DNA of 33,616 nucleotides, from contig NZ_JAAGKO020000069.1 in assembly GCF_027947535.2 (NCBI RefSeq), forward strand, positions 1-33,616, written 5' to 3'. This document shows, one piece after another, positions 10,839 to 13,616 of the stretch (positions are counted from its first letter, which is position 1; each line of letters opens with the position of its first letter). The stretch comes from Streptantibioticus silvisoli. Lineage in GTDB: Bacteria > Actinomycetota > Actinomycetes > Streptomycetales > Streptomycetaceae. Position numbers and translations under genes: made by a program. Under the pieces are notes generated by a model. That model had not been told where the DNA came from, searched no databases, and saw only the letters and a program-made list of their open reading frames with translations.

Positions 10839-13616
10839 GTGCGCGACCGCACCGGCGCCCGCGCCACGGCCACCCCGGCCGACGCCCCCGCGGCCGACCA
10901 CCGCACGGCCCGGCCCGACCCCGCCGCTCCCGCACACCAACCCACCCCGCCCGACTTCCCGCACGGCCCCTTCCCGCACGGCCCCGCGCCCCGGGATCAC
11001 CACGTCGCGATCACGACCTCCGCCCTGGTCCCGAGCGTCGGCGCAACCCGACGAGCCGACGCCGACGCAGCTCAACGAACCGACGGTCCCCAACGAGCCG
11101 ACACCGACGCAGCCCAACGAGCCGACGCAGACGCGTCGTTCGGCGCCCGGGCGACGCTCGCGGACGGCACGGCCGCCCCGGCTGCCCCGGTCGGTACGAG
11201 GACGCGCGGGCGTGGTGCCAGGACTTCCGGCTCCCCGGCGCAGGCCCCCGCCGCCGTACCGCTCTCCGCGCGCCGGGTGCGGCTGGTCTTCCTCGGGCTG
11301 ATGCTCACCCTGTCGCTGGCCGCGCTCGACCAGACCATCGTGGCCACCGCGCTGCCCAAGGTCGTCGGCCAACTGCACGGTCTGGACCGGATGTCCTGGG
11401 TCGTGACGGCCTATCTGCTCGCCTCGACCGTCGGCCTGCCGATCTACGGCAAGCTCGGTGACTTGTTCGGACGCAAACCGGTCTTTCAGTTCGCGACCCT
11501 CACCTTCGTCATCGGCTCGGCGCTGGCCGGCCGATCGCGGACCATGAACGAGCTGATCGCCTTCCGCGGCCTGCAAGGCGTCGGCGGCGGCGGGCTGATG
11601 ATCGGTGTGCAGGCGATCATCGGCGACATCGCCCCGCCCCGCCGCCGTGCCCGCTACATGGGCCTGGTCGGCGCCGCCTTCGGCCTGGCCTCCGTCGCCG
11701 GCCCGCTGATCGGCGGCTTCTTCACCGACCACGCCTCCTGGCGCTGGTGCTTCTACGTCAACGTCCCCTTCGGCCTGGTCACCCTCGCGGTGGTCACCGC
11801 AGTGCTCCGACTGCCGTGCCCGGCGGTCCGCGGACGGTTCGACGTGCTGGGTGCGCTGCTGCTGACCAGCGGTTCCACCTGCCTGGTGCTGCTCACCAGC
11901 TGGGGCGGCACACGGTACGGCTGGCGCTCCGACACCGTCATCGGCCTCGGCGCCGGAACGCTGGCGAGCGCCGCCCTCTTCGTGCTGGCCGAACACTTCG
12001 CCGCCGAACCGGTGATCCCGCTGCGGCTGTTCCGCGACCCGGTCTTCACCGTCGCCTCCCTCGTCGGCGTGGTGATCGGCGTCGCGCTGTTCGGCGCGGC
12101 CAGCTACCTGCCGACGTTCCTGCAGATGGTCGACGGCGCCTCCGCCACCGGCTCCGGCCTGCTGATGCTCCCCATGATGGGCGGCATCGTCATCGCCTCC
12201 GTCCTGTCCGGTCAGCTCATCGGCCGGTCCGGCCGCTACCGGGCCCACCCGCTGCTGGGCTGCGCGCTGGCGGCCGTCGGCATGTGGCTGCTGTCCCGGC
12301 TGCACGAGCACACCTCGCGCCCGGTCTACAGCTGCTGGATGGCGGTTCTCGGCCTCGGCGTCGGCATGGTGCTGCCGGTGCTGGTGCTCGCCGTGCAGAA
12401 CGCGGCCCGGCCTGCCGACCTCGGCGCGGCCACCTCCGCCAACAACTACTTCCGCCAGATCGGCGGTTCGGTCGGCGCTGCCGTCTTCGGCACCGTTTTC
12501 TCCGAGCGCCTGCGCCACCGCCTCGCCCTCGAACTGCCGCACTCCGTACGGCTTCCCGACCCCGACTCGATCACCCCGCAACTGGTGCGCGCCCTGCCCG
12601 CCCCGCTGCGCGACGGCTACGTACGGGCCTACGCGGCCGCCATGCCGCACGTCTTCCTGTACTTCGTCCCCGTGCTCGTCCTCGGTTTCCTGACCGCCTT
12701 CCTCCTCAAGGAGACTCCGCCGGTGATCCCCAACGGTCCGGCCCCCGCCCCCGCCCCCGACAGCGCCTCCGCCGTGCCGCTGCCCGGGGCCCGCTCCGCC
12801 GCCGGCCCCGGTGCGGTGGTGCGCGGAACCGTGCGACACGCCGACGGCAGTACTGTCGTGCGAGCCGCCCTCACCCTCATCGACGCGGCCGGTCACCAGG
12901 TGGGGCGCGGCGCCACCGGGGACGACGGCCACTACGCCCTCGACGCCCCCGCTCCCGGCGCCCACGTGCTGATCGCGGCGGCGGACGGCCACCGACCGCA
13001 GGCCGTCAGCGTCACCGTGACGGACCGGCCGGTCGACCTCGACGTCGTCCTGGGCGGCGCCGGCCACCTCACCGGGACCGTGCGAACCGCCGACGGGGCT
13101 CCCGTGCCGGACGCCGTCGTCACGCTGACCGACGTCCGCGGCGAGGTGGTCGCCGGGGCCCGCAGCGAGTGCGACGGGTCCTACGCCCTGACCGACATCG
13201 TGGCCGGTGACTACACCCTCGCGGCCGACGCCCCCGCCTTCCGCCCGGCCGCCCTGCCGGTCCGCGTCCAGGCATCCCGGGAGACCCGGCAGGACATCGA
13301 ACTCGCCGGCGGTGCCCTGCTGCGCGGTGTGGTGCGCGCCCCCGGCGGCCAACTCGTCGAGGCCGCCCGCGTCACGCTGCTCGACACGGCCGGCAACGTG
13401 GTCGACTCCGTCACCACCGGCCCCGACGGCGCCTTCCGCTTCACCGACCTGACCGCCGGCTCCTACACGGTGATCGCCGCCGGCTACCCGCCGGTCGCCA
13501 CCGTCCTGCGGATCGACAGCGGTAGCCGCACCGAACGCGACGTCCAACTCGGCCACGAGGACCGACCCGACGGCGACGCACGCGGTGCCGGGGCCGCCGT
13601 GCGGCGGCCGTGCTGA
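10839..13616 (+). CDS. DHA2 MFS transporter fused to three carboxypeptidase-regulatory-like domains
   Basis: About 925 aa from the GTG at 10839, chosen for AGGGGAG six bases upstream; an in-frame ATG lies at 10776. The first ~140 residues are low-complexity (Ala/Asp/Arg/Pro). A 14-TM DHA2 transporter follows: ALDQTIVATALPKVVGQL, GKLGDLFGRKPVF, GLQGVGGGGLMIGV, AGPLIGGFFTDHASWRW, ending FLLKETPPVIP. After an Ala/Pro linker come three beta-sandwich repeats of about 85 residues, starting GAVVRGTVRHADG, GHLTGTVRTADGAPVPDA and GALLRGVVRAPGGQLVEA, each with a DGSYAL/DGHYAL/DGAFRF strand and a G.Y.L/V.A turn (CarboxypepD_reg/Cna-B type). By topology rules for 14-TM transporters the tail is probably cytoplasmic; its role is unknown. 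Convergent with the gene ending at 13880. Confidence 0.85.
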   Translation: MRDRTGARATATPADAPAADHRTARPDPAAPAHQPTPPDFPHGPFPHGPAPRDHHVAITTSALVPSVGATRRADADAAQRTDGPQRADTDAAQRADADASFGARATLADGTAAPAAPVGTRTRGRGARTSGSPAQAPAAVPLSARRVRLVFLGLMLTLSLAALDQTIVATALPKVVGQLHGLDRMSWVVTAYLLASTVGLPIYGKLGDLFGRKPVFQFATLTFVIGSALAGRSRTMNELIAFRGLQGVGGGGLMIGVQAIIGDIAPPRRRARYMGLVGAAFGLASVAGPLIGGFFTDHASWRWCFYVNVPFGLVTLAVVTAVLRLPCPAVRGRFDVLGALLLTSGSTCLVLLTSWGGTRYGWRSDTVIGLGAGTLASAALFVLAEHFAAEPVIPLRLFRDPVFTVASLVGVVIGVALFGAASYLPTFLQMVDGASATGSGLLMLPMMGGIVIASVLSGQLIGRSGRYRAHPLLGCALAAVGMWLLSRLHEHTSRPVYSCWMAVLGLGVGMVLPVLVLAVQNAARPADLGAATSANNYFRQIGGSVGAAVFGTVFSERLRHRLALELPHSVRLPDPDSITPQLVRALPAPLRDGYVRAYAAAMPHVFLYFVPVLVLGFLTAFLLKETPPVIPNGPAPAPAPDSASAVPLPGARSAAGPGAVVRGTVRHADGSTVVRAALTLIDAAGHQVGRGATGDDGHYALDAPAPGAHVLIAAADGHRPQAVSVTVTDRPVDLDVVLGGAGHLTGTVRTADGAPVPDAVVTLTDVRGEVVAGARSECDGSYALTDIVAGDYTLAADAPAFRPAALPVRVQASRETRQDIELAGGALLRGVVRAPGGQLVEAARVTLLDTAGNVVDSVTTGPDGAFRFTDLTAGSYTVIAAGYPPVATVLRIDSGSRTERDVQLGHEDRPDGDARGAGAAVRRPC
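11040..11132 (+). repeat. Degenerate 6-bp-based repeats in transporter N-terminal leader
   Basis: Repeated acgagccgac(g/a)ccgacgcagc blocks of 24 and 18 bp. In the transporter frame they give RRADADAAQRTDG-type repeats. Whether this stretch is translated depends on the true start. Confidence 0.5.

Follow-up and report, generated by a model that had tools for sequence, protein, structure and literature searches.

The window, by which we mean the whole stretch of 33,616 nucleotides from Streptantibioticus silvisoli that was analysed, contains on its forward strand a stop-free open frame (10776-13616) that runs across a membrane pump and a C-terminal tail in one frame. With the GTG at position 10839 as start codon, the product comprises 925 amino acids. 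This start is supported by related loci: a GA-rich, ribosome-site-like motif resembling GACGAGGGGAG precedes an in-frame start in 63 of the 79 examined (62 GTG, one ATG). The features of the gene and of its upstream neighbour are as follows.

10137-10580, plus strand: SRPBCC (Polyketide_cyc2) gene directly upstream, a possible partner (PF10604, 74.2 bits)
10822-10832, plus strand: ribosome-binding-site-like GACGAGGGGAG ahead of the GTG start (similar site in related loci)
10839-13616, plus strand: DHA2 exporter gene with a C-terminal tail of three CarboxypepD_reg domains (open frame, Pfam, TIGR00711, start context)
10839-11258, plus strand: N-terminal extension, low-complexity, variable and unconserved (comparison with relatives, repeats)
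11259-12701, plus strand: 14-TM DHA2 membrane domain (AlphaFold2 helices, Foldseek matches to EmrB, EfpA and QacA, positive-inside charges)
12702-12809, plus strand: Pro/Ala-rich disordered linker, weakly conserved (low pLDDT, drop in conservation)
12819-13052, plus strand: CarboxypepD_reg domain 1 (Pfam, tail model)
13068-13304, plus strand: CarboxypepD_reg domain 2 (Pfam, tail model, fold match to carboxypeptidase D)
13320-13550, plus strand: CarboxypepD_reg domain 3 (Pfam, tail model)

Approximately the first 140 residues form an extension of variable, low-complexity sequence that lies outside the exporter proper; a tandem repeat within it (11042-11134) encodes Asp/Ala-rich repeats. The end of the protein beyond GHED is short and unconserved. 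Just upstream, a further, tail-less DHA2 exporter (8302-9780, plus strand) is 45% identical to the fused pump; its cluster has members in three of 81 loci, including the window, within the flanks compared. Between this tail-less pump and the SRPBCC gene lies a perfect heptamer array (TCGGCGG, 7.6 copies, 9856-9908). A run of peptidase-like genes occupies 16371-20644 (plus strand) and includes a match to DppA-type D-aminopeptidase below cut-off, one M20 peptidase, and an ORF whose peptidase/esterase matches are weak and likewise below cut-off.

The pump scored 176.8 bits with the Pfam model MFS_1 (cut-off 33.4) and 267.2 bits with TIGR00711, the model of DHA2 efflux MFS proteins (curated cut-off 230.2). 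Structure prediction, which a preliminary description of the locus had suggested, was performed for the full protein by means of AlphaFold2 (46 sequences; mean pLDDT 69.8, pTM 0.59). In the model, 14 membrane helices are connected to three beta domains by a disordered linker. In the linker, pLDDT is below 50 at residues 494-524, and conservation is 2.4-3.1 bits compared to about 3.9-4.0 bits on both flanks. The best PDB matches of the pump in Foldseek are EmrB, EfpA, MHAS2168, QacA and NorC; among solved structures, 14-TM DHA2 pumps are the closest. For a 14-TM layout with the N-terminus inside, the averaged number of Lys plus Arg in the loops of 81 aligned sequences is 22.2 on the cytosolic and 9.7 on the outer side. 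Helices, charge bias and fold matches all agree with the predicted DHA2 layout, that is, 14 TM segments and both ends inside. On the basis of the TM count, the positive-inside charges and the DHA2 structures, the tail is predicted to lie, almost certainly, in the cytosol, as the preliminary description had expected for a 14-TM protein. An odd number of TM segments, which would have placed the tail outside, was discarded on account of the AlphaFold2 helices and the charge bias; a different topology, one of the options raised at the outset, may be discounted at the level of prediction. From DHA2 family membership, we infer that transport is proton-driven.

The arrangement claimed originally, a complete exporter followed in frame by three beta domains, is confirmed by open frame, Pfam, TIGR00711 and AlphaFold2. 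A frameshift joining two genes, or a chimera, was looked for and is absent: the same open fusion occurs in all 80 relatives kept. The drug:H+ antiporters of the DHA2 type (EmrB, QacA, EfpA, Tcr3/OtrB), which gave the best Foldseek and NCBIfam matches, share the 14-TM MFS core. However, the ten best matched chains (408-510 residues) are too short for such a tail, and the models of EmrB, Tcr3 and OtrB (485-563 positions) leave no room for it.

In the tail, CarboxypepD_reg (PF13620; hereafter CarbD) is matched by three stretches with 137.7 bits (gathering cut-off 32.3). When the tail was modelled alone (45 sequences), the mean pLDDT was 86.6 and the pTM 0.59; the single domains appear well defined in the model, more so than their arrangement relative to each other. 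For the whole tail, Foldseek ranked the B. anthracis TIE protein, SdrD and pilins highest. Domain 2 superimposes on domain II of duck carboxypeptidase D with a VIA Z of 13.6 (1.4 A, 79 residues), and single domains match transthyretins and HIU hydrolases with VIA Z values of 9.7-11.4 over 79-84 residues; the transthyretin/HIU hydrolase family is absent among the Pfam matches of the protein at E<=1e-3. Familiar proteins of the CarbD type are mostly secreted, surface or ER-lumenal. Carboxypeptidase D, SdrD B and NOMO share Pfam family and fold with the tail, which differs from them in being predicted cytosolic and in being attached to an exporter. Signal peptides or external domains mark the secreted and surface proteins; here, the domains follow 14 TM segments and are predicted inside. 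Compared to the familiar examples, the fold is therefore ordinary and the place unusual.

The survey of the fusion and its neighbours that had been proposed revealed a widespread and highly constrained architecture, extending beyond one gene. The tail was matched in 97 of 150 genomes of the family (E<=1e-30), in 170 of 197 of the order and 53 of 394 of the class (both E<=1e-20), and in 12 of 296 of the phylum (E<=1e-15), all 12 being within the class; the four samples overlap, include the nearer genomes and count tails of a sister group (see below). The S. silvisoli genome itself contains 15 CarbD matches above the Pfam cut-off in six ORFs, namely four exporters (two DHA2, two FUSC), a soluble protein with three domains and a CarbD-YceI protein. 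None of these six looks secreted, and no signal peptide is visible on the soluble ones. A sixteenth match, below the cut-off, is a DUF1416 protein, which is small and without TM segments by hydropathy; in contrast to the tail, it has one domain, comprises 96 amino acids and is not part of an exporter.

Two fetched sets (12 and 40) gave 52 classified loci, 51 with a tail and one, L091, without. An MFS part is present at 38 of the 51, FUSC at two and MMPL at one; L151 and L157 are cut by contig edges, and eight loci (L089, L094-L098, L165, L166) were initially classed as short or soluble. Among the latter, L095 retains the terminal portion of an MFS part, L096 reaches a contig edge, and a divergent MFS gene lies close to L165. 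A class with a two-TM anchor (L095, L096) was dropped, as the helices of L095 match a distant MFS end and L096 lies at a contig edge. At L099 the MFS part is in another frame than the tail, and at L100 the third domain is disturbed. L099 and L232 have a frame break between pump and tail, due to a gene split or an assembly error; at L163, the open frame does not stop after the tail but enters a DUF1622-like stretch.

Another 46 domain-bearing ORFs, selected at new places from among the matches listed across 18 family genomes, comprise 24 MFS, two MMPL, one FUSC, three six-TM, nine CarbD-YceI (three assigned by Pfam, six by CarbD-YceI similarity search) and seven secreted-type subtilase or Kelch-repeat proteins. 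Besides DHA2 pumps, FUSC and MMPL proteins and, by a weak assignment, ABC2-like six-TM proteins terminate in CarbD domains. L235, L236 and L257 have six TM segments, a single C-terminal CarbD domain and a membrane part that matches no family above cut-off; L235 scores 23.3 bits with ABC2_membrane_3 (cut-off 31.6), and L236 and L257 resemble it by hydropathy. L259 and L262 are MMPL exporters with CarbD tails, whose best NCBIfam models, ActII-type and MmpL3, both stay below cut-off. Copy number differs among these other bearers: stretches passing the CarbD threshold number three in L159 and L092, two in L093, L252 and L259, and one in L262. The idea that the FUSC-CarbD fusion is widespread was not supported: among 101 genomes, an alignment from the start of the query to deep within the tail was obtained only with the two proteins of the query's own genome. 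A third case, L252 of G016, was found by Pfam, and in G031 and G084 the alignment reaches just into the first CarbD domain.

The seven subtilase or Kelch-repeat ORFs, all in other genomes of the family, exclude the notion that CarbD is always cytosolic. The view that the cytosol is an odd place for such domains is too strong: it fails for the S. silvisoli genome, where only exporters and soluble proteins lie above the cut-off, although secreted-type carriers occur elsewhere in the family. These carriers, together with the whole-tail fold matches to surface proteins and pilins, are what could be expected if an altered topology placed the tail outside the cell, where it would bind wall or an extracellular ligand. 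Such a location is extremely improbable in view of the 14 TM segments with the C-terminus inside, the charge bias, the DHA2 homologues and the soluble relatives without visible signal peptides.

For the analysis of conservation, the best 80 of at least 568 relatives confirmed in genome contigs were used, all of them from Streptomycetaceae. Their best segments are 69-77% identical to the query and cover it nearly completely, and in the aligned relatives the tail is at least as conserved as the pump. Of 3240 pairs, 964 were chosen (86-98.5% identity, dS 0.05-1.2). The median dN is 0.080 for the pump and 0.036 for the tail, the median dN/dS is 0.238 and 0.079, respectively, and dN/dS is lower in the tail in 960 of the 964 close pairs. 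This contrast is indicative only, because the pairs share history and are not independent, and because dS differs between the parts (pump 0.32, tail 0.46); dN on its own agrees in direction. As an indication from these comparisons, the tail would be the most constrained part of the protein, with about three times the constraint of the pump.

At four loci the pump part is absent and the tail is kept. L089, in the S. silvisoli genome, lies between genes for an aldo-keto reductase and a CarbD-YceI protein, a pair that elsewhere flanks pump-plus-tail genes; at L097, the tail is followed by CarbD-YceI; at L094 and L098, it stands directly behind SRPBCC. Fourteen transporter queries gave no match to these four loci at E<=1e-4. 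L098 consists of the ribosome-site motif that it shares with the fused genes, an ATG, a short stretch that by eye resembles the region after TM14, and the tail. An in-frame loss of the pump part would be the simplest reading. In a tree with many weak inner branches, L098 falls inside the 13-row group of the window (100/99), L094 beside L176 (93/93), and L089 and L097 within a sister group of 18 rows (95/85). These separate placements argue for detachment of the tail on more than one occasion. For the detached tails, dN/dS is 0.12-0.23 (L097), 0.20-0.39 (L098), 0.27-0.51 (L089) and 0.53-0.58 (L094); the attached controls gave 0.09-0.18 (L099), 0.29-0.31 (L181) and 0.37-0.59 (L176). Compared to its closest attached kin, L098 is under more relaxed selection. 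Judged by these values, the detached tails do not seem to be obviously decaying.

The detached tails bear on the possibility that the tail is a module for autoregulation or assembly, which gates the pump or drives its oligomerisation or stability and plays no role for cargo. The high constraint, the fixed C-terminal place and the transthyretin-like fold would fit, and folds of this kind often mediate protein contacts. Soluble tails, however, persist without a pump beside conserved neighbours, and the occurrence of the domain on unrelated pump folds hardly fits one gate contact; we regard such a module as rather unlikely.

In the sister group, the tail is immediately followed by a gene for CarbD-YceI, a lipocalin-type protein; that beside L089 scores 138.9 bits with PF04264 (cut-off 23.7). 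Among 101 family genomes searched, all 41 close copies of CarbD-YceI (62-100% identity, 39 genomes) follow a tail match in the same orientation, whereas none of the 21 distant copies (34-43% identity) does. The distance from the tail match to the CarbD-YceI start, measured between matches, is 72-468 nt, and the gene stands behind 41 of 131 tail rows. No signal-like stretch was seen by eye before the CarbD domain in 17 CarbD-YceI examples, the starts of which are uncertain. The YceI-type lipocalin BcnA, which shares PF04264 with this neighbour, binds hydrophobic antibiotics, and its crystal contained octaprenyl pyrophosphate in the tunnel, although the authors are unsure that this ligand is physiological (PMC5350466). 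BcnA is secreted, whereas the sister-group protein is fused to CarbD and lacks a visible signal peptide; the passages of PMC5350466 consulted make no mention of a CarbD domain on BcnA.

In the group of the window, SRPBCC takes the neighbouring position and is found upstream of the pump in 78 of 80 related loci; of the two exceptions, L040 has almost no upstream sequence and L088 has some. The SRPBCC gene is present in 183 of 197 genomes of the order. When 20 regions of 6 kb were fetched from genomes without a strong match to the window-type tail, 19 contained SRPBCC without adjoining pump and tail, and only L204 had both; in G002, SRPBCC is about 12 kb away from the tail. As SRPBCC thus occurs alone or at a distance, its link to pump and tail may be passive, and for the same reasons the case for a proven operon partner is weakened. 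The 19 regions, chosen because they were expected to lack pump and tail, and the two frame breaks at L099 and L232 are compatible with an ordinary fusion of no special function that is kept by descent. Given that the strongest purifying selection of the protein sits in the tail and that detached tails retain open frames (dN/dS 0.12-0.58), we consider this very improbable.

Both cargo capture and a scaffold had been proposed for the tail, and these are still the best guesses, with genome context favouring cargo capture. A scaffold would tie a biosynthetic enzyme to the exporter and so couple synthesis with export. In its favour, an N-terminal CarbD domain has been reported, in a single sentence, for a terpene synthase of Streptomyces (PMC6007079); an aldo-keto reductase gene occurs at five of the 51 clustered tail loci, and Polyketide_cyc2 is the family of the neighbouring SRPBCC protein. 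Against this, visual inspection of the 22 neighbour clusters listed for the window's group, some of which were scanned with Pfam, revealed no synthase, and a device specific to one gene cluster would hardly be expected in about two thirds of the family genomes (97 of 150, counting tails of the sister group). A scaffold is thus distinctly unlikely.

The tail stays with small neighbours of ligand-binding type also where the pump is missing, and unrelated exporters carry the same domain. On these grounds we tentatively prefer, at somewhat less than even probability, a cytosolic module for docking or cargo hand-off. The three transthyretin-like domains at the C-terminus of the pump would serve as a docking platform, which would take up hydrophobic cargo, either directly or by way of a small partner of ligand-binding type, and hold it close to the inner opening of the pump. 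Candidates for the partner would be CarbD-YceI in the sister group and perhaps SRPBCC in the window's group. The module would thus act in capture and hand-off, as opposed to a surface adhesin. Speaking against hand-off, the link to CarbD-YceI is confined to the sister group and absent from that of the window, it covers only 41 of 131 tail rows, and the link to SRPBCC may be passive; furthermore, a module that survives without a pump could act on something else, and some detached tails are under looser selection.

A broader proposal is an internal carrier system of actinomycetes, in which a cytosolic carrier of the YceI or SRPBCC (START) type docks on the exporter tail and delivers hydrophobic compounds to the pump, for example prenylated or aromatic metabolites. 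In this view, the evolutionary core would be the tail rather than the pump, and CarbD domains would have moved between DHA2, FUSC, MMPL and ABC2-like exporters. In this full form, the proposal is unlikely. A parallel is offered by transthyretin, which pairs with retinol-binding protein, a lipocalin-type carrier. This is an analogy of folds, a transthyretin-like fold combined with a lipocalin-type carrier, and no homology is claimed; the system proposed here differs in the attached membrane exporter, and its complex is putative.

All parts of the protein belong to known families, and domain databases probably list the architecture of pump plus CarbD. Arrangement, constraint and partner appear to be undescribed; a literature search, which covered open-licence papers and is therefore a weak indication of absence, returned no description of an MFS-CarbD fusion. 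CarbD domains in actinomycetes are no reliable sign of secretion. To our knowledge, little is known about how the exporters of antibiotic producers obtain greasy cargo inside the cell. A conserved cytosolic tail that is common to unrelated exporters and has a lipocalin-type neighbour in the sister group is a concrete candidate for cargo delivery. If this is correct, Streptomyces could rely on a tail-based hand-off for exporting metabolites.
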